Assembly: GCA_905182565.1 (NCBI GenBank)
Contig: CAJJCB010000027.1
Coordinates: 1 to 64,000 of the forward strand
DNA: 64,000 bases
Origin: Acidimicrobiaceae bacterium
Lineage (GTDB): Bacteria > Actinomycetota > Acidimicrobiia > Acidimicrobiales > Poriferisodalaceae
Direction of reading: 5' to 3'
Shown piece after piece: positions 68 to 48,247 of the stretch; positions within the stretch are counted from its first letter, which is position 1, and each line of letters opens with the position of its first letter. A program made the translations under genes and the position numbers. The notes beneath the pieces were generated by a model that did no database searches, was not told the DNA's origin, and saw nothing but the letters and a program-made list of their open reading frames with translations.

Positions 68-829
68 ATGAGTGACAATATCAAAATGAAAATTGATGGC
101 TCCGTTGCGGTTGTAACTATGGGAAAACAGCCACATAATCTTATTAACGGTAATTTCCTTCAAGAACTTATTAGTGCTTTCGAAAGTGCTGAAACTCAAG
201 GCGCCCGATCCATATTATTGCGAAGCGAAATGAAGCACTTTAGCGCTGGCGCAGATATCGATGGGTTCGGTTCAGAAACTAATCAGAACATGCCTGCAGA
301 TGAAGTCTTGGACCGGCTCGAAGGAATTGGTCTACCCACTATCGCAGCCGTCCATGGGCTTGCTCTTGGAGGCGGTTTTGAACTTGCGCTCGCATGTGAT
401 TTCATTATCGCTGCCAATTCAGCAAGTCTTGGTTTAGTCGAAACTTCTCTAGGATTAGCTCCGCTTCTCGGCGGGGTACAAAGAGTCGTGCAACGCAGTG
501 GAACTGCTCGGGGTAAAGAAATAGCAATGTTCGGTCGGCGACACGACCCAGCTACTCTTGAAACCTGGGGAGTAATCAATGTTGTTGTTGAGGAAGAAGA
601 ATTACTTACAGCATCCATGTCTTGGGCCCGTCAATTAGCTTCAGGTCCAACAGTTGCTCATCGAGTAATTAAAAAACTTGCCGCAGTCTGTGCGAATGAT
701 GGGGTTCGCTCAGCTGATCTACTCCAAGATAAACTTGTTCAAGATATCTGGAACTCTGAAGATGCCAAAAATGGTTTACAGGCTTATGCGGAATCTGGGC
801 CAGGTACAGCAATATTTGAGGGCCGATGA
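68..829 (+). CDS. Enoyl-CoA hydratase/isomerase family protein
   Basis: This 253-residue protein has the usual length and fold of the crotonase superfamily and would hydrate a 2-enoyl-CoA or carry out a related reaction in the cytoplasm. The oxyanion-hole region is visible at about residues 57-62 (HFSAGAD) and 98-105 (LALGGGFE). Both acids expected of a true hydratase are present: Glu105 in GGGFELALACD and Glu125 in GLVETSLGL. Its stop codon overlaps the ATG of the following CoA-transferase (ATGA), so the two are probably translated together. The neighbouring mesaconyl-CoA genes suggest a short-chain or branched dicarboxyl-CoA substrate, but the sequence does not reveal which. The upstream partner of the operon lies outside the window. 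Confidence 0.85.
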   Translation: MSDNIKMKIDGSVAVVTMGKQPHNLINGNFLQELISAFESAETQGARSILLRSEMKHFSAGADIDGFGSETNQNMPADEVLDRLEGIGLPTIAAVHGLALGGGFELALACDFIIAANSASLGLVETSLGLAPLLGGVQRVVQRSGTARGKEIAMFGRRHDPATLETWGVINVVVEEEELLTASMSWARQLASGPTVAHRVIKKLAAVCANDGVRSADLLQDKLVQDIWNSEDAKNGLQAYAESGPGTAIFEGR

Positions 830-2046
830 CTGCTCCTTTAGAAGGCCTTAAAGTCGTAGATTTCACGCGCGTTTTAGCCGGACCACACTGCACCAAAACT
901 TTAAGAGATTTAGGAGCTGAGGTAATTAAAATAGAACCGCCTGAAAGTGACACAGGCAGATCCGGACAACCTCACGTTGGTCCAATGTCCCTATATTTTG
1001 CTCAACAAAATGCAGGGAAAAAAGCCATCAGCATGGATCTGAATCATCACGAAATACAAGAATTACTGGGTCAGCTTTGTGCAGATGCAGATGTGATTGT
1101 CGAGAACTTTCGTCCAGGAACCCTTGATCGTTTCGGATTCAGCTATCAGGACGTTGTGCTAACCAACCCTTCTGTAATCTATGTCTCAATAAGCGGCTAC
1201 GGCCAAACAGGCCCCTGGAAAAATAGACCTGCATACGCGCCAACGGTACAAGCAGAATCTGGTTTCACAGAAATAATCAAAAGACACTACGGCGATGTTC
1301 TGACGAGGACCGAAAACGACGCATACAACCACGCCGATGTTTACAGTGGCCTTCAGGCAGTCATAGCCACCCTTGCGGCAATTGCTCATAGAAACAAGAC
1401 AGGTGAAGGACAACATGTAGACGTTGCAATGGTTTCATCCATGCTTTATGTAAACGACCGCGTCAGTTACGAACTATCCGGAATTGATGTCGAAGGCGAA
1501 CCACTTGCGCTAAGCGCGCCTGAGTCCCCGGTATTTGAGCTACCAGATGGCCGTTCAATAACAATTGCTGCAAGTCCTGTATCATCAGCTGTTTTCATTC
1601 GATATTGCGCAATGATGCGCCGGAACGACCTGCTTTTGGACCCTCGCTTCATCACTGCAGAATTTAGACGTGATAATTGGAATGACCTCCATGCAGAAAT
1701 CAGAGCTTGGATACTTACGTTTAGAACACTCGAAGAATTAGAAGCACAAGTTAGCGAGTCGGGATTGGCTGTCGGTGTGATCAGAACTGTGTCCGAAATT
1801 GCAGAATCAGAGTGGGCTAAGCACAGAGGAGCAATTCGCGAGATAGACGATCGATCAGGGGGAACAGCACGAGTCCCGAGTCCGCCCTGGAAATTTAGCA
1901 AGTCTGAGCTCCCTGGACCCGGACTTGCTCCTTTCCAAGGAGAACACAATATAGAAGTGTTTAGCCAACTTGGGATCGACAAAGCTCGGATAGAAGAACT
2001 ACTTCAAAAAGGCGCACTTATCGATAACACACCCACAGGTAATTGA
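826..2046 (+). CDS. CaiB/BaiF family (class III) CoA-transferase
   Basis: A 406-residue class III CoA-transferase that would move CoA between carboxylic acids or isomerise a CoA ester. The N-terminal LEGLKVVDFTRVLAGP signature, the ENFRPGTLDRFG block near residue 93 and the GYGQTGP loop near 124 are typical. Asp171 (NHADVYSGL) sits where the catalytic aspartate that forms the acyl anhydride is expected. It overlaps the enoyl-CoA hydratase by four bases and is followed by the mesaconyl-CoA hydratase-like gene. Possible roles are a succinyl-CoA:malate/citramalate CoA-transferase or an unrelated acyl-CoA transferase. It is clearly a different subfamily from the Mct-like protein downstream. Confidence 0.85.
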   Translation: MTAPLEGLKVVDFTRVLAGPHCTKTLRDLGAEVIKIEPPESDTGRSGQPHVGPMSLYFAQQNAGKKAISMDLNHHEIQELLGQLCADADVIVENFRPGTLDRFGFSYQDVVLTNPSVIYVSISGYGQTGPWKNRPAYAPTVQAESGFTEIIKRHYGDVLTRTENDAYNHADVYSGLQAVIATLAAIAHRNKTGEGQHVDVAMVSSMLYVNDRVSYELSGIDVEGEPLALSAPESPVFELPDGRSITIAASPVSSAVFIRYCAMMRRNDLLLDPRFITAEFRRDNWNDLHAEIRAWILTFRTLEELEAQVSESGLAVGVIRTVSEIAESEWAKHRGAIREIDDRSGGTARVPSPPWKFSKSELPGPGLAPFQGEHNIEVFSQLGIDKARIEELLQKGALIDNTPTGN

Positions 2047-2136: not shown

Positions 2137-3102
2137 GTGGACAACGACGGACCCTACTACGACGATTTCACTCAAGGAATGACTATTCCGCCATTGCCAG
2201 CGGTCACTGTGACTGAAGCTGACAACGTTGCGTATCGGATGATCACCGGTGACCAACATCTAGCATCGGCAGACAGCGATGCTTACAAACAAATGACCGG
2301 TTCTAAGGGAGCTCTAGTAAATCCAGGCCTAGTGATGCAATACGCCATAGGTCAAACTACAAATGCAACTCGGAAAGCTATAGCCAACCTTTACTACCGG
2401 TCCGTGCGTATTCTCAGAGCCGTAGAAGTGGGTGAAACCATTAAAACAGCCACAACGGTTTTAGGATTAGCTGATTCAAAACCAAAAGGTGATCAGCATC
2501 GTGGAAAAGTTTGGTTAGGCATTGAGACATCAGGTGACAATGGCTTAATTGCTCAGTATGAAAGATGTGCGTTGGTAGCTAGCAGAGCTGGCTCACCTGG
2601 ACATTCAGCCCAAATTCCCGGCCCTTCTGACCCGGCGCCTCTCGAAGATCTGGCTCCACTCACCCCAAGCTGGGATATGAGTAGTTCTCCAGTCACTCCT
2701 TGGGAACTTAATGAAATCCGATCAGATGCCATGCGAGATCATATAGACCTTGCGCCTTCTCTTGCTCGCATGACTTTCAACCAAGCCTTTGTTCACAGAG
2801 ACGGGTTAGCCAGCATTTACGGGAAAAGACTTGTCTATGGCGGCCATGTACAGGGCCTCGCCCAAGCATCTCTGACCAGAGTTCTCCCGGGTTTAGCTGC
2901 AGTTGTTGCTTGGGATGGCTGTGATCATATTGGTCCAGCGTTTGAAGGTGACCTGCTTGAATTTAGGCATGAACTCAAAGAAGTTTTAGCTGTGAATGGC
3001 AGTCGACTATTACGATTCGAAGTTCGTGCCGCTGTAGTCGACGAGACAGGAGCCGCTGGGAGTGACATCCTGGTATGGACACCGATTGTTTTCGCTCCTT
3101 GA
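2137..3102 (+). CDS. mch: Mesaconyl-CoA hydratase (beta-methylmalyl-CoA dehydratase)-like MaoC protein
   Basis: A 321-residue double-hotdog protein. The N-terminal half (YYDDFTQGMTI, then a TVTEADN block) and the C-terminal half (NQAFVHRD at 215-222, GKRLVYGGHVQGLA at 229-242, FEGDLLEF) match, as I recall the sequences, the Mch enzymes of Chloroflexus and the ethylmalonyl-CoA pathway, including the AIANLYY and VGETIKTATTVLGL stretches. Mch reversibly hydrates mesaconyl-C1-CoA to beta-methylmalyl-CoA. The start is a GTG with only a purine-rich stretch upstream. The Mct-like gene follows at 82 nt, which strongly supports mesaconyl-CoA as substrate. It is about 25 residues shorter than Chloroflexus Mch, so specificity for the C4 thioester (a Meh-like role) cannot be excluded. 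Confidence 0.75.
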   Translation: MDNDGPYYDDFTQGMTIPPLPAVTVTEADNVAYRMITGDQHLASADSDAYKQMTGSKGALVNPGLVMQYAIGQTTNATRKAIANLYYRSVRILRAVEVGETIKTATTVLGLADSKPKGDQHRGKVWLGIETSGDNGLIAQYERCALVASRAGSPGHSAQIPGPSDPAPLEDLAPLTPSWDMSSSPVTPWELNEIRSDAMRDHIDLAPSLARMTFNQAFVHRDGLASIYGKRLVYGGHVQGLAQASLTRVLPGLAAVVAWDGCDHIGPAFEGDLLEFRHELKEVLAVNGSRLLRFEVRAAVVDETGAAGSDILVWTPIVFAP

Positions 3103-3184
3103 AATAACTCAAAAATGATAAGTGCGGTTAGCTATAAGCCCCTGCTTTCATGATTGGGCTTGCTCGAGTCGCTAGGGAGTACCA

Positions 3185-4405
3185 ATGACACCAGTTCTAG
3201 AAGGATTAAGAATCATCGAAGGATCAGCGTTCGTGGCTGCTCCTCTCGGAGGAATGACGCTGGCGCAACTAGGCGCCGAAGTAATCCGATTTGATGCTAT
3301 TGGAGGTGGCCTTGACTATCAGCGTTGGCCAGTAACCAAAGAGGGAGTAAGCCTATTTTGGGCAGGTCTCAATAAGGGCAAAAAGTCAATACAAATTGAC
3401 CTCCGTAGTGACGAAGGAAGAGAAATAGTCACTCGTCTGATAACCGAACCCGGTCCTGATAACGGAATATTTTTATCGAACTTTCCTGAGACTGGGTGGC
3501 TAGCCGACAGTAACCTTCGTTCCCTTAGAGAAGATCTAATTTACATAAATATCATTGGCAACCCAGATGAATCAACTGCCGTGGACTACACAGTAAACCC
3601 CTCATCGGGTTTTGCTATGGCTACAGGACCGACTGGGTCTAGTATGCCGACAAATCATGTCCTCCCTGCCTGGGATACAGCTACTGGGTTGACTGCCGCT
3701 GTTGGATTATTAGCGGCGGAGCGGCATCGGACCCGCACTGGAATCGGTCAACTCTCTAAAATTTCTCTTACAGATGTGGCCTTCGCTATGGTCGCAAATC
3801 TCGGTTACATGGCTCAGGCACAATTAACGAACCGGGATCGAGTTCCTGTAGGTAATGATCTGTATGGAGCCTTTGGCAGAGACTTTGCTACTAAAGACGA
3901 GCGGCGGGTCATGGTCGTTGCTATCAGTAGACGCCAGTGGAAAAGCCTAGCTGAAGCGACAAATATTATTGATCATTTACCCGCTATCGAGAACGCTTTG
4001 GGAGTCGATCTAAGTAAAGAAGGCGACCGTTGGGATGCCCGCGATGCAATTGCATCATTTATTACACCATTTATACAATCCCATACTCTCGAAGAAATTG
4101 GCGCAATCTTTGATGCCAAAGGAGTTTGCTGGGGGCCCTACCAAACTTTTGTTCAACTCGTGAACGAGGATCGCCGCTGTAGCGAAGAAAATCCTATGTT
4201 CGCAACTATTGATCAACCCGGAGTGGGACGCGTTCTCGCCCCTCGTTCCCCTCTATCATTTTCAGAAATTGATCGGGGAGACCCTGCGCCGGCACCTCTC
4301 CTTGGTCAACATACAGATGAAATACTTATGGAAGTACTAGGGATGACATCGCCCGAGGTTGGCAAACTTCATGATAATGGAATTGTTGCCGCAGCAATCA
4401 AATGA
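3185..4405 (+). CDS. mct: 2-Methylfumaryl-CoA isomerase (mesaconyl-CoA C1-C4 CoA transferase)
   Basis: A 406-residue class III CoA-transferase of the special Mct type. Stretches such as EGSAFVAAPLGGMTLAQLGA (12-31), GGGLDYQRWPVT, FWAGLNKGKKSI, VDYTVNPSSG and GNDLYGAFGRDFAT are hallmarks, from memory, of Chloroflexus 2-methylfumaryl-CoA isomerase and are not general CaiB/BaiF motifs. Asp164 in LPAWDTATG is the probable catalytic aspartate. The enzyme shifts CoA within mesaconyl-CoA from the C1 to the C4 carboxyl, a step of the second half of the 3-hydroxypropionate bi-cycle. A good AGGGAG ribosome site lies at 3174-3179. The gene follows an Mch-like hydratase, and a terminator-like hairpin comes after it. 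Confidence 0.9.
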   Translation: MTPVLEGLRIIEGSAFVAAPLGGMTLAQLGAEVIRFDAIGGGLDYQRWPVTKEGVSLFWAGLNKGKKSIQIDLRSDEGREIVTRLITEPGPDNGIFLSNFPETGWLADSNLRSLREDLIYINIIGNPDESTAVDYTVNPSSGFAMATGPTGSSMPTNHVLPAWDTATGLTAAVGLLAAERHRTRTGIGQLSKISLTDVAFAMVANLGYMAQAQLTNRDRVPVGNDLYGAFGRDFATKDERRVMVVAISRRQWKSLAEATNIIDHLPAIENALGVDLSKEGDRWDARDAIASFITPFIQSHTLEEIGAIFDAKGVCWGPYQTFVQLVNEDRRCSEENPMFATIDQPGVGRVLAPRSPLSFSEIDRGDPAPAPLLGQHTDEILMEVLGMTSPEVGKLHDNGIVAAAIK

Positions 4406-16175: not shown

Positions 16176-18140
16176 GTGACTGACTCAACCAGAAACGAGC
16201 GCGATCGTCCCTGGATGATGAGGACGTATTCAGGACATTCAACGGCTAAGGCATCAAACGAGTTGTACCGGAGCAACCTAGCCAAAGGTCAAACTGGTCT
16301 TTCCATAGCATTTGATTTGCCTACACAGACCGGATACGACCCGGACCACCCACTCGCAGCAGGCGAGATAGGCAAGGTTGGTGTTCCCGTTTGCCACCTG
16401 GGACACATGAAAACTCTTCTAGATAACATTCCCGTCGGGGAAATGAACACGTCAATGACAATTAACGCTACGGCAGCTTGGTTACTGGGTTTATACGTCG
16501 CCAATGCGGAGAAGCAAGGCATTAGTTCTACCAACCTGCGCGGAACTACTCAAAATGACATTGTCAAGGAATACTTAAGTCGCGGGACTTACATATTTCC
16601 ACCAGAAGCAAGCCGTCGATTAATTGTTGACATGATCGCATTTTGTTCAGAGCACATTCCTTTTTGGAACCCGATCAATATTTGCAGCTACCACCTTCAG
16701 GAAGCTGGGGCGACTCCAGTCCAGGAAATTGCATATGCTTTGGCCAACGCGATTGACATCCTTGACGCAGTGCGAGACTCGGGTCAAGTACCTGAAGAGC
16801 GATTCGAGCAAGTAGTAGGCAGCCTTTCATTCTTTGTGAACTCTGGGATTCGATTCGTCGAAGAAGTCTGCAAAATGCGTGCGTTTACTTCTATGTGGGA
16901 CCAGATTTGTCAAGACCGCTACGGTGTTAAAGATCCGAAAATGCGAAGATTCAGATACGGGGTTCAAGTAAATTCTTTGGGACTCACAGAGGCTCAACCA
17001 GAAAACAATGTCCAACGTATAGTTCTCGAAGCTCTCGGGGTCACTTTATCCAAGGGAGCACGTGCGCGTTCATTACAGTTACCTGCTTGGAACGAAGCCC
17101 TAGGCCTTCCCAAACCTTGGGACCAACAATGGTCGCTTCGGATACAACAAGTCTTAGCTCATGAAACCGATCTTTTGGAATATGAAGATATTTTTGATGG
17201 TTCAAAAGTTATAGAAGGCCTAACGTCCAAACTAATTTCAGAAGCTCAAACAGAGCTCGACGAAGTCATGTCATTAGGTGGTGCTTTTGCAGCAATTAAC
17301 GAACTCAAGGGTCGCCTAGTCGCCAGCCATACTGAACGGATGCGAAAGATTGAAGAAGGAGACCTCACCGTAGTCGGCGTGAATCAATTCATTGACAGCG
17401 CAGAATCCCCTTTGACTAGTGAAGAGAGTATTCTGCGGGTTGACCCAGCTGTCGAAACAGAAATACGCGCTGACGTAGCTGATTGGAAACTAAAAAGGGA
17501 CGACGAAAAAGTCAAAGCTGCACTCAATGAGCTTCGACTGGCCGCTTCAAGCGATACCAACATCATGTTGCCAACTATTGCTGCAGCCAAGGTCGGAGTT
17601 ACAACCGGTGAGTGGTCTCAAGTCTTAAGAGATGTTTTTGGTGAGTACAGAGCACCAACTGGCGTGTCGAGCGCACGAGGGAGCTCAAGCACTCTTAGAG
17701 ATGTTGCACAACGAATATCAGGCTTACCCCAAGGCCCGCCCAGACTGCTGGTTGCTAAACCTGGCCTTGACGGTCACTCCAATGGTGCAGAACAAATTGC
17801 AGTCGCAGCCCGTGATGCGGGTATGGAAGTTATTTATGATGGTATTCGCGTTACTCCCGAACATATAGCAGCAGCAGCGCGCGATGAAGATGTCGATATT
17901 ATTGGTTTATCTATTCTCTCAGGAAGCCACCTACATCTGGTACCTGAGGTTCTCGAGGCCTTACGTAAGCAGGGAGTTACTGCCCCGGTAGTCGTCGGCG
18001 GAATTATCCCTCTAGAAGACCAGAAAGTGCTCCTTAAAGCAGGTGTATCACGTATTTACACGCCAAAAGACTATGAGCTTGCACAGATCATGAATGATAT
18101 AGCTCAACTCGTCATTGAGGCTCGAGAAATTTCAGCCTGA
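16176..18140 (+). CDS. ecm: Ethylmalonyl-CoA mutase (coenzyme B12-dependent)
   Basis: A 654-residue single-chain mutase with a catalytic domain (about 1-500) and a C-terminal B12-binding domain holding DGHSNG (near 532-537), whose His ligates cobalt. It converts (2R)-ethylmalonyl-CoA to (2S)-methylsuccinyl-CoA. I assign Ecm rather than methylmalonyl-CoA mutase from diagnostic segments: RTYSGHSTAKASN, LPTQTGYD and NICSYHLQEAGATP, which match Ecm/MeaA sequences as I remember them, where methylmalonyl-CoA mutases have FSTA, THRGYD and SGYHMQEAG types. The start is GTG with a strong AAAGGAG at 16164-16170. The 3' end overlaps a convergent CoA-transferase gene by nine bases. Confidence 0.9.
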   Translation: MTDSTRNERDRPWMMRTYSGHSTAKASNELYRSNLAKGQTGLSIAFDLPTQTGYDPDHPLAAGEIGKVGVPVCHLGHMKTLLDNIPVGEMNTSMTINATAAWLLGLYVANAEKQGISSTNLRGTTQNDIVKEYLSRGTYIFPPEASRRLIVDMIAFCSEHIPFWNPINICSYHLQEAGATPVQEIAYALANAIDILDAVRDSGQVPEERFEQVVGSLSFFVNSGIRFVEEVCKMRAFTSMWDQICQDRYGVKDPKMRRFRYGVQVNSLGLTEAQPENNVQRIVLEALGVTLSKGARARSLQLPAWNEALGLPKPWDQQWSLRIQQVLAHETDLLEYEDIFDGSKVIEGLTSKLISEAQTELDEVMSLGGAFAAINELKGRLVASHTERMRKIEEGDLTVVGVNQFIDSAESPLTSEESILRVDPAVETEIRADVADWKLKRDDEKVKAALNELRLAASSDTNIMLPTIAAAKVGVTTGEWSQVLRDVFGEYRAPTGVSSARGSSSTLRDVAQRISGLPQGPPRLLVAKPGLDGHSNGAEQIAVAARDAGMEVIYDGIRVTPEHIAAAARDEDVDIIGLSILSGSHLHLVPEVLEALRKQGVTAPVVVGGIIPLEDQKVLLKAGVSRIYTPKDYELAQIMNDIAQLVIEAREISA

Positions 18141-19344: not shown

Positions 19345-19533
19345 TTAATAGTTTTTGATCGGCCAAGTACTTGTTTCATTCCACCATCGAGCGCTGAATT
19401 TCCATTGCGACGCGTCGGAAACAGAATCAAGCGTTCTTGGTTTCGGCCATAAAATTTCGAGTGCTGCACCGATTGCTGCTGCCTCTTCGTCTGTAGGGGC
19501 AGGAGTCATGTCGTCAATAGAAATTAGATTCAT
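19345..19533 (-). CDS. accE: Acyl-CoA carboxylase epsilon subunit
   Basis: A 62-residue protein with the two conserved segments of the actinobacterial epsilon subunit: PTDEEAAAIGAALEIL in the middle and a Trp-rich end (WKFSARWWN). In acyl-CoA carboxylases the epsilon subunit stabilises the alpha6-beta6 complex and stimulates activity. Its ATG overlaps the stop of the carboxyltransferase gene (ATGA), which fixes the start and ties the two together functionally. Confidence 0.85.
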   Translation of the reverse strand: MNLISIDDMTPAPTDEEAAAIGAALEILWPKPRTLDSVSDASQWKFSARWWNETSTWPIKNY

Positions 19534-21086
19534 AATGGAATGTTTCCGTGCTTGCGTTTCGGAAGATCTTCACGCTTTGTTGCGATCATTCGAAAAGCGG
19601 CAATTACTTTACGGCGAGTTTCCACCGGGTCGATTACAGCGTCAATGATTCCTCGCTCAGCGGCCACGTACGGGTTTGCATATTTCTCTGTGTAATCATT
19701 TACAAGTTCTGCTTTCCTCGCGACCGGGTCTGCGGATTGCTGCAGTTCACGACGATTCAATATTTCAACAGCTCCTTGCGGTCCCATTACTGCCAGTTCT
19801 GCTGTTGGCCAAGCATATGAGACGTCGCAACCAACAGATTTCGAATCCATCACAACGTACGCACCGCCATACGCCTTTCGAGTTATGACTTGTACTCTTG
19901 GCACCGTAGCTTCGCAATAGGCATACAAGAGTTTGGCACCATGACGGATAATTCCACCATGTTCTTGGTCAACGCCAGGCAAAAATCCTGGCACATCTAC
20001 GAAAGTTAGAAGTGGAATATTGAAGGCATCGCAGAAGCGAACAAACCGGGCAGCTTTTTCTGAAGATTCAATATCTAACACGCCAGCCATTATCATCGGC
20101 TGATTACCCACGACCCCTATTGAACGTCCATCGATTCGAGCGAATCCACAAAAAATAGAACCGGCCCAACCTGCGTGGTATTCCATGAAATCGCCGTCGT
20201 CTACAACTTCAGTGATTACGCTCTTAATGTCGTAGGGGACGTTGGCATTTTCTGGAAGAACATCTCTTAGCGAAGGGCAGTCACGGTCGGGGTCATCGCT
20301 GCAGTCCGATAGAGGTGGACCATCAATATTGTTCGATGGGAGGAAAGACAGCAAGTACTTCACATCATCCAAAACTGTCTCTTCGTCGGGAGACACAAAT
20401 GAAGCAACGCCAGATTTCGTACTGTGAGATCCTGCACCCCCGAGCTCTTCTAGCGTCACATCTTCTCCGGTAACCGTTTTCACAACATCGGGCCCTGTTA
20501 TGAACATATGACTGGTATCGCGCACCATGAAAATAAAATCCGTCATCGCCGGCGAATAAACGGCGCCGCCGGCGCATGGTCCCATAACCACACTGATTTG
20601 AGGAATCACTCCCGAAGCTCGCACATTACGCCGGAAAATGCCGCCATAACCAGCGAGTGAAACAACACCTTCTTGGATTCGCGCACCAGCACCATCATTT
20701 AAACCAATCATCGGTGCACCCACAGATTCTGCTAGGTCCATCACTTTGTGAGTTTTTTCGGCAAAAACTTCTCCCAAAGCCCCACCGAACACCGTGAAGT
20801 CTTGGCTTGACACAAAAACCTTTCGGCCGTCTATTGTGCCCCACCCTGTAATGATGCCATCGGTGTAGGGCCGTTCATCCAGACCAACATCGTGAGCACG
20901 GTGGCGTGCCAACATATCCAACTCATGAAAAGAACCATCATCAAGTAAGTACTCGATACGTTCTCGAGCAAGCATCTTTCCTTTGTCTTTTTGACGTTGG
21001 ACAGACCTTTCTGACCCTGCGCTCAAAGCTGCGCTCCGACGATTTTCAAGATCAAGCAAACGTTCAGACATATTTAGATTAGCCAC
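19530..21086 (-). CDS. pccB: Propionyl-CoA/acyl-CoA carboxylase beta (carboxyltransferase) subunit
   Basis: A 518-residue carboxyltransferase that passes CO2 from carboxybiotin to the alpha carbon of propionyl-CoA (and perhaps acetyl-CoA), giving (S)-methylmalonyl-CoA. The two crotonase-like halves show GARIQEGVVSLAGYGGIF, PCAGGAVYSPA, VDVPGFLPG and the KAYGGAYVVMDSK region. An aspartate is present where actinobacterial propionyl-CoA carboxylases carry a specificity residue, but I cannot assign it exactly. The biotin carboxylase (alpha) subunit is not in the window. In the ethylmalonyl-CoA route it would process the propionyl-CoA released from beta-methylmalyl-CoA. Confidence 0.9.
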   Translation of the reverse strand: MANLNMSERLLDLENRRSAALSAGSERSVQRQKDKGKMLARERIEYLLDDGSFHELDMLARHRAHDVGLDERPYTDGIITGWGTIDGRKVFVSSQDFTVFGGALGEVFAEKTHKVMDLAESVGAPMIGLNDGAGARIQEGVVSLAGYGGIFRRNVRASGVIPQISVVMGPCAGGAVYSPAMTDFIFMVRDTSHMFITGPDVVKTVTGEDVTLEELGGAGSHSTKSGVASFVSPDEETVLDDVKYLLSFLPSNNIDGPPLSDCSDDPDRDCPSLRDVLPENANVPYDIKSVITEVVDDGDFMEYHAGWAGSIFCGFARIDGRSIGVVGNQPMIMAGVLDIESSEKAARFVRFCDAFNIPLLTFVDVPGFLPGVDQEHGGIIRHGAKLLYAYCEATVPRVQVITRKAYGGAYVVMDSKSVGCDVSYAWPTAELAVMGPQGAVEILNRRELQQSADPVARKAELVNDYTEKYANPYVAAERGIIDAVIDPVETRRKVIAAFRMIATKREDLPKRKHGNIPL

Positions 21087-45160: not shown

Positions 45161-45562
45161 CTATTCCTGGACTAGCTCTATGAGGGTGCCAAGACTTCCT
45201 TTAGGATGCATAAAAGCTACCGTAGTTCCTCGAGAACCAGGTCTAGGAGCCTGGTCTATAGCGGTTGCACCTGCTAAGACCATGGCCTCAAGAGCAGCCT
45301 TACAGTCGTCTACTCTATACCCGATATGATGCAGACCTTCGCCTCTTTTCGCTAGGTGTTTAGCTATAGGGGAATCAGGACGAGTAGCAGCAGTCAACTG
45401 AATATAGCTATCGGCTACTTTAATCAAAGCCTCTTCTACCCCATCACTTTCCACAACTTCACGATGATGAACTTCTGCGCCAAATGCCTCTTTGTAGTAG
45501 TTAATTGCTTGCTCCAGATCATTTACGGCGATCGCCACATGATCAATTTCGGTGAGAATCAT
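45161..45562 (-). CDS. mce: Ethylmalonyl-CoA/methylmalonyl-CoA epimerase
   Basis: A 133-residue VOC enzyme. All four metal ligands expected of methylmalonyl-CoA epimerases are present: His8 (EIDHVAIAV), Gln55 (YIQLT), His79 (GEGLHHIGYRV) and Glu129 (TLIELVQE). It interconverts the R and S forms of methylmalonyl-CoA, and in the ethylmalonyl-CoA pathway the same enzyme also acts on ethylmalonyl-CoA. The gene starts eight nucleotides after ccr on the same strand, which supports a dual role between Ccr and Ecm. Confidence 0.92.
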   Translation of the reverse strand: MILTEIDHVAIAVNDLEQAINYYKEAFGAEVHHREVVESDGVEEALIKVADSYIQLTAATRPDSPIAKHLAKRGEGLHHIGYRVDDCKAALEAMVLAGATAIDQAPRPGSRGTTVAFMHPKGSLGTLIELVQE

Positions 45563-45570
45563 AACCAGTC

Positions 45571-46929
45571 CTATTTTTTATTTTCAATTGATTCAGCATG
45601 CCTGCTGAAAAGTGTAATTTTGTTTTCACCAATCGATTGACGCTTTTCGAGATTCGTTATCCCTTGATCAGCTTTTGGAGCTAAGCAAAGAATACCGAGT
45701 TTCCCTTCATGCAAATTATGGTGCACCTGATTTGCAGCCTCTCCGGTATTAGCTAGCGCAAAGGTTTTAGACAGAATCGGCTGAATTTTCCCTTGGTCAA
45801 TTAGTCGATTCATTGCCCATGCCTCTGAGTAGTTTGCGAAATGACTCGACAAAATTTGCTTCAACCGCATCCAAAGGTGTCGATTATCATACTCAATCAT
45901 GTATCCACTGGTAGCTGCACAGGTAACGATTTTTCCGCCGCGCTTGGCTACGAATACAGATGCCCCCATAGTCGAACGTCCAGGGTGTTCAAAAACAATG
46001 TCTGGATCTTCTCCGGTGAAGGATCTAACTTTCTTACCAATCCGACGCCATTCTGCCTCGTCTTGAGTATTTTCATCACGCCAGAATTTGTAATCTTCAG
46101 CTCGTCTATCGATGACATGTCGAACGCCTAACTCATTCAACAAGTTAGCTTTGTCGTCTGAGCTCACTACGGCCACCGGAGTTCCGCCTCCATTAAGTAC
46201 TAGCTGGCAGGCATAACCCCCCAAACCGCCTGAAGCGCCCCATATGAGAACATTGTCGCCTTGCTTCATTCTTGCTGCATTGTCTCCAACAAGCATTCGG
46301 TAGGACGTAGATGCACAAAGAGCATTAACAGCAGATTCTTCCCAACTCAAATGCTCTGGCTTTGGCATCAGCTGATTAGCTTTAACAATCGACAGATCCG
46401 CAAGTCCACCAAAGTTAGTCTCGAAACCCCATATTCTTTGGTTTGATGCCATCATCGAATCTTGATGCGCTGCAGGGTCCTGATCGTCTACATAGTTACA
46501 GTGGACATTTACTCGGTCGCCAGGTTTCCAATTGCGCACGGCCGAACCGGTTTGAATTATGACGCCACAAGCGTCTGACCCCAGCACATGATGATCCAAA
46601 GCGTGTCTGGCGCCCCACTTGCTTTCTCGTCCAAGTCTATCCAAAAAACCAAAAGTTGGGAGCGGCTCAAAAATTGATGACCACACTGTATTGAAGTTTA
46701 TCGAACTCGCCATCACAGCCAAATACACCTCATCTGGTGCCAGCTCTGGTGTAGCGACTTCACCGATATGTAGCGACTCTCGTGGGTCTTTTTCCCAAGA
46801 CTCACGACCTTCAAATATGCCCACTTCATCACGTTTTACATAGACAGCTCGATAGCTTTCCGGAATCTTAAGATTAGAAATTTCCTCGCCAGAGGCTCCA
46901 GCTTCAATTGCTTCAAGAATGTGTTGCAT
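45571..46929 (-). CDS. ccr: Crotonyl-CoA carboxylase/reductase
   Basis: A 452-residue MDR-family enzyme that reductively carboxylates crotonyl-CoA with NADPH and CO2 to (2S)-ethylmalonyl-CoA. The long N-terminal extension, SSINFNTVW (75-83), DHHVLGSDACG and the cofactor loop IWGASGGLGG (229-238) are diagnostic. The residues that hold CO2 in Kitasatospora Ccr appear conserved: Asn80, Phe169-Glu170 (WGFETNFGG) and His363 (SSHFANY), so carboxylation and not only reduction is expected. It is the key enzyme of the ethylmalonyl-CoA pathway, is co-oriented with the epimerase and is divergent from the thiolase. Confidence 0.95.
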   Translation of the reverse strand: MQHILEAIEAGASGEEISNLKIPESYRAVYVKRDEVGIFEGRESWEKDPRESLHIGEVATPELAPDEVYLAVMASSINFNTVWSSIFEPLPTFGFLDRLGRESKWGARHALDHHVLGSDACGVIIQTGSAVRNWKPGDRVNVHCNYVDDQDPAAHQDSMMASNQRIWGFETNFGGLADLSIVKANQLMPKPEHLSWEESAVNALCASTSYRMLVGDNAARMKQGDNVLIWGASGGLGGYACQLVLNGGGTPVAVVSSDDKANLLNELGVRHVIDRRAEDYKFWRDENTQDEAEWRRIGKKVRSFTGEDPDIVFEHPGRSTMGASVFVAKRGGKIVTCAATSGYMIEYDNRHLWMRLKQILSSHFANYSEAWAMNRLIDQGKIQPILSKTFALANTGEAANQVHHNLHEGKLGILCLAPKADQGITNLEKRQSIGENKITLFSRHAESIENKK

Positions 46930-47065: not shown

Positions 47066-48247
47066 ATGTCAGGTTCAGTTATCGTCGGAGGCGCACGGAC
47101 GCCTATCGGAAAATTCAATGGTGGACTTACTAAATTCAGTGGTGTCCAACTAGGTGCTTTTGCTATCGAAGCAGCGTTGGAACGGGCTGGCATATCCGGG
47201 GACCAAGTTGACCATGTAGTTATGGGACAAGTTTTACAAGCAGGACAAGGCCAAATAACGGCTCGGCAAGCGGCCGTTCTCGCTGGCATCCCAATGAGTG
47301 TTCCAGCCATCACCATAAACAAAGTCTGTCTATCTGGACTTAATGCTTTATACATGGCTGACCAAATGATTTCGTCAGGCGATGCTGATGTCGTAGTTGC
47401 AGGCGGGATGGAGTCGATGACCAATGCTCCCTATCTTTTAGCTGAAGGCCGTAATGGTTTCAGGATGGGGCACAGTGAGGTTCGCGATGCGATGATTCAT
47501 GATGGCTTATGGTGTGCATTCGACAATGAACACATGGGAGACGGAACCGAGAAGGATTCGTCAGCGGCTAAGATCAGTCGAACTCGAATGGACGAGTTCT
47601 CAGCTCGATCACATGAGCGTGCTGCTTTCGCACAAAAAGAAGGACGATTCGATCAGGAAATTGTTTCCGTCCTAATCCCGCAAAGAGGTGGAGATTCTCT
47701 TGTGATGGAAACTGATGAGGGAATAAGACCAGGCACCACTAGCGAGAGTCTCGGAAAACTCCGACCAGCTTTTACGCCTGATGGTTCAGTCACTGCTGGG
47801 AACGCTTCACAAATTTCTGACGGTGGCGCAGCTATGGTGGTTATGTCTTCATCAAAAGCAGCTGAGTTAGGTCTTACTGTTCAGGCTGAAATTTTGAGTT
47901 ACGGCATGGTTTCAGGTCCAGGCACTTGTTTGCTGACACAACCTTCTCAAGCTATTTTTAAAGCGCTTGCAAAAACTGATATTCAGGTTTCTGACATCAA
48001 CTTATTCGAACTCAATGAGGCATTCGCCGCTGTGGGGATCGCTGCAAGCGAAGAACTAGGAATAAGCCCAGACTTAGTCAACGTAAACGGCGGCGCAGTG
48101 GCTCTTGGTCACCCCATAGGGATGTCTGGAACTCGTCTGGCTCTTACATTAATGAGTGAACTTGGCAGGAGAGGCGGTGGCTTCGGTGCTGCTGCTCTTT
48201 GTGGAGGAGGCGGCCAAGGCGATGCGCTAATAATGCGTGTGCCCTAA
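47066..48247 (+). CDS. phaA: Acetyl-CoA C-acetyltransferase (thiolase)
   Basis: A 393-residue biosynthetic-type thiolase that condenses two acetyl-CoA to acetoacetyl-CoA. The active-site cysteines are Cys88 (NKVCLSG) and Cys379 (ALCGGGGQGDA), and the catalytic His349 is in GGAVALGHPIG. ELNEAFA is also present. It lies 136 nt from ccr, divergently, so the first and fourth steps of the ethylmalonyl-CoA pathway share a promoter region. AGGT just before the ATG serves as a modest ribosome site. Confidence 0.93.
   Translation: MSGSVIVGGARTPIGKFNGGLTKFSGVQLGAFAIEAALERAGISGDQVDHVVMGQVLQAGQGQITARQAAVLAGIPMSVPAITINKVCLSGLNALYMADQMISSGDADVVVAGGMESMTNAPYLLAEGRNGFRMGHSEVRDAMIHDGLWCAFDNEHMGDGTEKDSSAAKISRTRMDEFSARSHERAAFAQKEGRFDQEIVSVLIPQRGGDSLVMETDEGIRPGTTSESLGKLRPAFTPDGSVTAGNASQISDGGAAMVVMSSSKAAELGLTVQAEILSYGMVSGPGTCLLTQPSQAIFKALAKTDIQVSDINLFELNEAFAAVGIAASEELGISPDLVNVNGGAVALGHPIGMSGTRLALTLMSELGRRGGGFGAAALCGGGGQGDALIMRVP

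Follow-up and report, generated by a model that had tools for sequence, protein, structure and literature searches.

A hydratase–Mct gene pair as a possible glyoxylate-free exit from the ethylmalonyl-CoA pathway in an Acidimicrobiaceae genome

The assimilation of acetyl-CoA without the glyoxylate shunt is a classic question to which few answers are known. A 'reductive citramalyl/ethylmalonyl-CoA pathway', conceived in 2021 as an artificial design, would convert acetyl-CoA + HCO3- + 2 NADPH + ubiquinone (UQ) into pyruvate at -39 ± 9 kJ/mol (PMC10521678), and a similar link has been proposed as a synthetic tool in connection with the methylsuccinate/itaconate degradation of Pseudomonas and Cupriavidus (PMC12290011). 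Mct, the 2-methylfumaryl-CoA isomerase, reaches a kcat/Km above 10^6 M-1 s-1 in Chloroflexus aurantiacus (PMC9813914); its key residues are the nucleophile Asp165, Arg47 and the 'cork' Leu/Ile43, while Arg104 and Arg314 contact CoA (PMC9196870, PMC9813914). The enzyme occurs in the partial 3-hydroxypropionate bi-cycles of Candidatus Kentron symbionts, for which no ethylmalonyl-CoA pathway is predicted (PMC6593406), and in 2022 it served as a marker in 27 Actinobacteriota metagenome-assembled genomes (MAGs) of 68.6% mean completeness, for which the assimilation of organic substrates was proposed (PMC9802188). Here we analyse the first 64 kb of contig C27 (hereafter the window) of an Acidimicrobiaceae genome (G000; 2.65 Mb in 27 contigs, estimated 95.6% complete), in which an Mct-family gene adjoins a gene for a hydratase that we call Hyd. 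The two open reading frames (ORFs) are separated by 82 bases and lie where an earlier reading of the letters, the sequence-only reading, had placed them:

2137..3102, plus strand: double-hotdog hydratase of the Rv0216/Mch fold (Hyd), 321 residues, GTG start; assigned with an AlphaFold (AF2) model and Foldseek; proposed substrate mesaconyl-CoA (C4, C1 or both)
3185..4405, plus strand: Mct-family intramolecular CoA transferase (2-methylfumaryl-CoA isomerase family), 406 residues; assigned with TIGR04253 and structures 7xkg/8apq

We tentatively lean to a reading in which the ethylmalonyl-CoA pathway of G000 has, in the Hyd–Mct pair, a glyoxylate-free exit to pyruvate. The methylsuccinyl-CoA dehydrogenase Mcd would make mesaconyl-C1-CoA, and Mct would equilibrate it with mesaconyl-C4-CoA. 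Hyd would form (S)-citramalyl-CoA from the C4 ester by hydration and would probably act on the C1 ester too, giving beta-methylmalyl-CoA, with a relaxed specificity such as that measured for the haloarchaeal mesaconyl-CoA hydratase (Mch). A lyase would then split the products into acetyl-CoA + pyruvate, or into propionyl-CoA + glyoxylate. The pair would in this way add a glyoxylate-free exit to the ethylmalonyl-CoA pathway, with the net conversion acetyl-CoA + HCO3- + 2 NADPH -> pyruvate and with the electrons of Mcd passing to the quinone pool. Every enzyme of this route is present in G000 except a proven C4-hydratase, their activities being predicted from sequence. The sequence-only reading had proposed the same hybrid; as an inference it was sound and it is partly supported, with the mesaconyl-C4-CoA hydratase Meh missing in G000 and the stronger case found in two proteobacterial genomes.

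The identity of the 3185–4405 protein as Mct, likewise first suggested in the sequence-only reading, stood up well. TIGR04253 was its best NCBIfam model (509.6 bits, E = 6e-153; next family 96.6 bits), and its closest solved relatives are both Mct crystal structures (7xkg, 488 bits; 8apq, 486 bits). As the protein falls short of the curated TIGR04253 cut-off of 725 bits, we file it as an Mct-family protein and not as a proven isofunctional member. Compared with Chloroflexota Mct (L050, L056) it is ~55% identical along almost its whole length, and MAGs labelled Acidimicrobiaceae or Candidatus Microthrix supply its nearest relatives among public genomes. Asp37, Leu43, Arg47, Arg75, Asn100, Phe101 and Asp165 are kept; Arg104 is replaced by Thr and Arg314 by Gly (residue numbers above ~55 are shifted by one for Chloroploca, in our own judgement). 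Across 80 Mct loci, Asp165 is found in all 80, Arg47 in 79 (the remaining one being an unread X), Leu/Ile43 in 76, Arg104 in 26 and Arg314 in seven. The alternative identity of a general CaiB/BaiF transferase was rejected: the best paralogue in the same genome scores 98 bits against 915 bits for the protein itself, and a long branch splits off the Mct clade in a tree built by a quick method, without the paralogues par_L002 and par_L005 and without the duplicate of L050. The tree also excludes the placement among such transferases that the sequence-only reading had allowed for. The 3185–4405 product is a true Mct-family protein, for which interconversion of mesaconyl-C1- and mesaconyl-C4-CoA is predicted. 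Across the 2.65 Mb of G000, 57 CaiB/BaiF transferase matches were counted, several of them as pairs within one ORF of ~800 codons.

By sequence, the closest solved relatives of Hyd are Rv0216 (157 bits) and then Chloroflexus Mch (73 bits). Its AlphaFold model, built on nine sequences, has a mean predicted local distance difference test value (pLDDT) of 86.9, and a Foldseek search with the model returned Chloroflexus Mch (4e3e) and a second mesaconyl-CoA hydratase (8hgn) at a template modelling (TM) score of 0.86 and Rv0216 (2bi0) at 0.84, with the itaconyl-CoA hydratase PaIch (8huc) at just 0.49. In the second half of the protein, N215, H220 and the motif YGGH are invariant with four canonical Mch. 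Orthology to the characterised Mch was tested and fails: identity is 31% over residues 10–296 (E = 2.8e-19), whereas two Acidimicrobiia orthologues of Mch score 59–60% with E < 1e-130, and Hyd as a plain Mch is ruled out. The resemblance to mesaconyl-CoA hydratase that had been noticed at first thus holds for the fold and not for the sequence, which is nearer to Rv0216 and does not make Hyd an Mch orthologue. To our knowledge, Rv0216 has no assigned reaction.

The crotonyl-CoA carboxylase/reductase Ccr, an epimerase and the ethylmalonyl-CoA mutase Ecm were correctly recognised in the sequence-only reading as encoded alongside the pair. These and the further annotated features of the window are:

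45571..46929, minus strand: crotonyl-CoA carboxylase/reductase (Ccr); TIGR01751 524 bits, cut-off 378.55
45161..45562, minus strand: methylmalonyl/ethylmalonyl-CoA epimerase-like protein, 133 residues, adjoining Ccr; 83% identical to the Ccr-neighbour ORF in L084; presumably an epimerase
16176..18140, plus strand: B12-dependent acyl-CoA mutase, Ecm-type (ethylmalonyl-CoA mutase); TIGR00641 460 bits, above its cut-off
47066..48247, plus strand: acetyl-CoA acetyltransferase (thiolase), divergent from Ccr; NF006086 505 bits (cut-off 526), TIGR01930 441 bits, over cut-off
19530..21086, minus strand: carboxyltransferase of the propionyl-CoA carboxylase beta/MmdA kind; TIGR01117 777.5 bits, cut-off 998.8
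826..2046, plus strand: CaiB/BaiF CoA-transferase paralogue, sharing 4 bases with the preceding ORF; PF02515 295 bits, TIGR04253 just 54.6 bits
68..829, plus strand: crotonase-family enoyl-CoA hydratase, the first long ORF of the contig; PF00378 160 bits

No Ecm-specific or epimerase-specific model matched, and both proteins were named for their resemblance to the products of Ccr-neighbouring genes; the mutase is 57–68% identical to mutases encoded no farther than ~6 kb from Ccr in L250, L251, L255, L258 and L259. The crotonase–CaiB pair upstream was dismissed as a part of the module, as it is absent beside Hyd–Mct in L010, L011 and L024.

Two of the three enzymes that the sequence-only reading had suggested looking for elsewhere in the genome are encoded on contig C26. 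Mcd (C26:269092-270711) scores 514 bits to the (2S)-methylsuccinyl-CoA dehydrogenase 8ciw, and the malyl-/citramalyl-CoA lyase Mcl (C26:280852-281895) scores 483 bits to the Chloroflexus-type 4l7z against 205 bits to the R. sphaeroides lyase, is 62% identical to Chloroploca Mcl and is followed by a CitE-like ORF; the tri-functional Chloroflexus lyase cleaves citramalyl-CoA (PMC3832036). With Mcd, and with the thiolase, Ccr, the epimerase-like protein and the Ecm-type mutase of the window, G000 has the upper ethylmalonyl-CoA pathway. The third, Meh, was looked for in vain, so that of the two proteins whose absence was to count against the hybrid the lyase is present and Meh is missing. Neither a canonical Mch nor an orthologue of the one-domain Mch described below was found in G000. 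The best one-domain relative, at 41% identity, lies at C26:136893, and the spot beside Mcd that one-domain Mch occupies in relatives is taken by an ORF that we read by eye as MutY. Hyd or the 41% relative could be the mesaconyl-C1-CoA hydratase of this genome. An adjacent split MaoC pair (C20:156049-156974) was considered as Meh and is a weak candidate: its best match in the PDB, itaconyl-CoA hydratase, scores just 45 bits, and NCBIfam models show it as HadA/HadB-like. Relatives of this pair follow Mct in alphaproteobacterial-type loci, with both halves in L029 (11194-12101) and L048 (11029-12140) and the second half only in L036 (11675-12145) and L042 (11696-12091). A second one-domain MaoC protein, RipB/Ich-like where scanned (L240), adjoins a CitE-like lyase in L236 (9236-10566), L239 (3361-4805), L240 (612-1996) and L241 (9171-10450); G000 has this pair split between two contigs.

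To compare these genes with those of other genomes, the neighbourhoods of the loci were read by tblastn with chosen reference genes; ORFs of GC-rich loci were picked mechanically, and absences in genomes G178–G227, which were reached through loci and have no completeness figure, are weak. A search for Ccr (E <= 1e-80) covered 50 of the 80 Mct genomes, picked by neighbourhood and tree spread, and gave a match in 18, of which 17 are over the cut-off; among 14 named genomes searched as a control, one matched (Caulobacter vibrioides). Ccr was found in 11 of the 12 genomes in the window's Mct clade (10 over cut-off) and, outside this clade, in 7 of 23 genomes picked for neighbours or kinship and in none of the 15 picked from the rest of the tree.

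The hybrid route appears better supported by its genes in two proteobacterial genomes than in G000. In L066, from a gammaproteobacterial MAG, the two halves of the route share ~12 kb. The first half runs from Ccr (559 bits, above the cut-off) through genes for a MeaB-like GTPase and a mutase of the Ecm type to Mcd (642 bits against 8ciw); the second comprises Mct, a Meh that scores 197 bits against itaconyl-CoA hydratase, and a lyase resembling CitE. A GGDEF gene and a QOR-like gene separate the two. Both halves are repeated in G198 on two contigs, L047 and L250. When 39 genomes were searched for Mch (E <= 1e-6), 35 had a match and none was found in the genome of L066, in G198, or in the remaining two, G024 and G095. 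Ccr, Meh, Mct and a CitE-like lyase also stand together in L083, whose genome has a canonical Mch as well, as have G191, G199 and G212. In two Acidimicrobiia loci (L151 4984-9607; L152 6581-11213), Mcd, a CitE-like lyase, Mct and Meh form a cluster that is possibly a module leading from methylsuccinyl-CoA to pyruvate + acetyl-CoA; no Ccr was found in these genomes with the window's Ccr at E <= 1e-80, a search that distant forms may escape. Mct further lies ~70 bases (Variovorax Root473) or ~1.1 kb from a relative of Mcd (56–57%) in L081 (8304-11191), L057 (7044-10873) and L062 (4621-8435), with no Meh in reach in any of the three and no Ccr match in the genome of L062. L252 (8331-17100) is an ethylmalonyl-CoA cluster with two Ccr genes, in which yet another kind of two-domain hydratase (28% to Mch) lies between Mcd and Ecm.

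The same survey bears on the idea that the window protein, although an intramolecular CoA transferase of the Mct clade, acts on another dicarboxylyl-CoA, with the Hyd–Mct pair serving some other degradation route. The missed TIGR04253 cut-off and the loss of the Chloroflexota Arg104 and Arg314 would suit such an enzyme, as would the 32 of 50 Mct-clade genomes with no Ccr match and the 44 of 80 Mct loci without any reference gene nearby, although loci scored as empty may still hold other genes. The near-invariance of Asp165 and Arg47 speaks against it, and so does the clade's recurrent association with Mcd, Ccr, Ecm, Mcl, Mch and Meh, the common metabolite of which is mesaconyl-CoA; we regard this explanation as quite unlikely.

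Which mesaconyl ester Hyd would use bears directly on the proposed exit. A class survey comprised 178 Acidimicrobiia genomes, with Mct counted at E <= 1e-100 and Ccr searched with the window's Ccr at E <= 1e-80, which Ccr of the proteobacterial kind (36–41% identical) could escape. Ccr was found in 81 genomes, 70 of which carry a one-domain MaoC protein that seems to be the usual hydratase (Mch) of Ccr-bearing Acidimicrobiia. We equate this protein with an actinobacterial Mch because it is linked to Mcd, which it divergently adjoins in the near relatives G179, G180 and G184, and because haloarchaeal Mch has one-domain bacterial relatives (PMC5592240). The 11 Ccr genomes without it comprise six with Hyd, G000 among them, two with canonical Mch and three in which none was found. 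All six genomes with both Hyd and Ccr therefore fall among these 11 (Fisher p = 1.4e-6, uncorrected for kinship), and five of the six show no Mct at the survey threshold, which points to Hyd acting on mesaconyl-C1-CoA. In the same survey, Chloroflexus-type Mcl was seen in 27 of the 178 genomes, all 27 with Ccr and just two with canonical Mch.

This distribution is what would be expected of an ordinary ethylmalonyl-CoA pathway with a swapped hydratase, in which Hyd would be the mesaconyl-C1-CoA hydratase, flux would run to glyoxylate + propionyl-CoA, and Mct would be a side enzyme, for instance one that recovers, in reverse, mesaconyl-C4-CoA from C5-dicarboxylate breakdown. The Mch-like fold of Hyd and the lack of a one-domain Mch in the window's own genome agree with such a swap. 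It leaves unexplained why Hyd stands beside Mct in unrelated genomes, without Meh in reach, and why Hyd coexists with one-domain Mch in G179, G180, G184 and G189, a coexistence that rules out a strict swap of one for the other. We consider this explanation doubtful.

The neighbours of Mct point in another direction. In 9 of the 80 Mct loci, Hyd and Mct are no more than 0.25 kb apart; seven of these loci are of Actinomycetota type, one is from a gammaproteobacterium and one from a MAG labelled Deltaproteobacteria/Myxococcota. These loci are scattered over the Mct tree, with starred branches that force at least three changes; in a second tree, G184 was scored as Mct-adjacent despite a contig end between L015 and L265. 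None of the nine has Meh within the stored flanks, two of which are short, the left one of L009 at 0.6 kb and the right one of L033 at 1.7 kb. Canonical Mch, by contrast, found within 5 kb of Mct in another nine of the 80 loci, is accompanied by Meh within 5 kb in all nine (Fisher 4e-5 for the contrast, uncorrected for kinship). The gene order in L073 is CitE-Hyd-Mct, and in L072, a member of the window's Mct clade (Shimodaira–Hasegawa-like approximate likelihood ratio test, SH-aLRT, 99), Meh stands beside Mct in the place of Hyd. Together with the coexistence of Hyd and one-domain Mch, these arrangements point to mesaconyl-C4-CoA as a substrate, alone or in addition. A Hyd that takes both esters would reconcile the two sets of facts, and this is our best reading, not a result; haloarchaeal Mch has just a 3.5-fold bias for the C1 over the C4 ester (PMC5592240).

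Five genomes that combine Hyd and Mct with a match for Ccr (G000, G178, G181, G182 and G185) show no one-domain Mch orthologue. In G183 and G190, both of the window's clade, neither Hyd nor the one-domain orthologue was detected, just a 50% relative of the one-domain protein beside a CitE-like gene, and a third hydratase solution may be in use there. Around Hyd in four genomes of family f2, the ten ORFs scanned yielded nothing tied to a mesaconyl-CoA route: seven belong to A2M, methyltransferase, alkyl sulfatase, RibD, glycosyltransferase, acyl-CoA dehydrogenase and acetyl-CoA hydrolase/transferase-domain families, and three have no family. It is possible, and we put it forward with some reserve, that bacteria of at least two phyla naturally run the 2021 design, with Mct connecting the carboxylating half of the ethylmalonyl-CoA pathway and the citramalyl-CoA half of the 3-hydroxypropionate bi-cycle, so that acetyl-CoA and bicarbonate yield pyruvate and glyoxylate is bypassed. 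In Acidimicrobiia such as the organism of the window, Meh would then be replaced by a new C4-hydratase that has the Mch/Rv0216 fold.

The pair might also be part of a 3-hydroxypropionate bi-cycle for organic substrates, co-assimilating glyoxylate and propionyl-CoA as proposed for Kentron and the Actinobacteriota MAGs. The lyase would join glyoxylate and propionyl-CoA, Hyd would dehydrate the product to mesaconyl-C1-CoA, Mct would convert this into the C4 ester, and a further hydratase would lead to citramalyl-CoA. Mct does adjoin an Mch-like protein, reminiscent of the order Mct-Mcl-Mch in Chloroploca, and a Chloroflexus-type Mcl is present in the genome. Genomes with Hyd and Mct in which no Ccr was detected also exist: G075, G123 and G169, in which the two genes are adjacent just in G123, gave neither Ccr nor Mcl at our thresholds. 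Partial bi-cycles have a precedent (PMC6593406), and the published proposal of organic-substrate assimilation in Actinobacteriota (PMC9802188) adds weight to this explanation, so that both the Hyd–Mct exit and the swapped hydratase lose slightly. Set against this are the need for a separate Meh, none of which was found in G000, and the fact that the window's Mct clade tracks Ccr, and we judge a bi-cycle part unlikely.

Several observations weigh against the Hyd–Mct exit in G000. In sequence and fold Hyd resembles Mch rather than Meh/Ich, and no orthologue of Meh or Ich was found in the 95.6% complete genome, where only a 52-residue match was returned. The genes are loosely linked, with Ecm 12 kb and Ccr 41 kb away from Hyd–Mct and with Mcd and Mcl on another contig. 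To these have to be added the confinement of Hyd, among the Ccr genomes of the class survey, to those without one-domain Mch, mostly without Mct, the three Hyd- and Mct-bearing genomes lacking detected Ccr and Mcl, and the published reading of actinobacterial Mct as organic-substrate assimilation by bi-cycle enzymes.

If the Hyd–Mct exit is real, it would be a further route from acetyl-CoA + bicarbonate to pyruvate, oxygen-insensitive and, by published calculation, requiring no ATP of its own (PMC10521678). It would alter what an Mct hit means in genome surveys, where TIGR04253 has served as a marker of the bi-cycle (PMC9802188). It would also provide the first proposed reaction for a branch of Rv0216-like proteins. 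Desertimonas flava, a cultured isolate, carries Mct, Hyd and Ccr, which makes the hybrid idea testable; apart from Hyd, the Mch search (E <= 1e-6) gave no match in it.

In searches of the open-access literature, no report was found of an organism joining both half-pathways, and passages of PMC10576062, PMC10173188 and PMC8262859 contain no such combination. The sequence-only reading had known of no described organism with it; this appears to hold for the gene sets with Ccr, while the net route had been designed in 2021 and actinobacterial Mct reported in 2022. Because of the latter report (PMC9802188), Mct in Actinobacteriota is no novelty. Neither is the idea of the route, and it is the gene sets joining Mct to Ccr that appear to be new.

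Compared with the described systems, Hyd has the double-hotdog fold of Mch (4e3e, 8hgn) and Rv0216 (2bi0), at TM scores of 0.84–0.86 and with N215/H220 and YGGH kept, but it shares just 24–33% identity with them and is no orthologue of Mch. The window's Mct has Asp165, Arg47, Leu43, Arg75 and Phe101 in common with the Mct of the 3-hydroxypropionate bi-cycle in Chloroflexus aurantiacus and Roseiflexus castenholzii; unlike these, it adjoins Hyd instead of belonging to an Mct-Mcl-Mch operon, and its genome has Ccr. With the ethylmalonyl-CoA pathway G000 shares Ccr, the epimerase-like protein, the Ecm-type mutase, Mcd and the lyase, and it differs in having no detected canonical or one-domain Mch and in the addition of Mct. 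Candidatus Kentron (PMC6593406) and the Actinobacteriota MAGs (PMC9802188) resemble G000 in carrying Mct without a full autotrophic cycle, and the word 'ethylmalonyl' is absent from the main text of the latter report. The methylsuccinate/itaconate route differs in its start from free methylsuccinate and in its C4-specific dehydrogenase, and the available part of its description does not mention Mct (PMC12290011). The net route of the 2021 design is identical to that of the hybrid proposed here (PMC10521678). That pathway was designed on paper, whereas the gene sets described here are natural ones that could run it.

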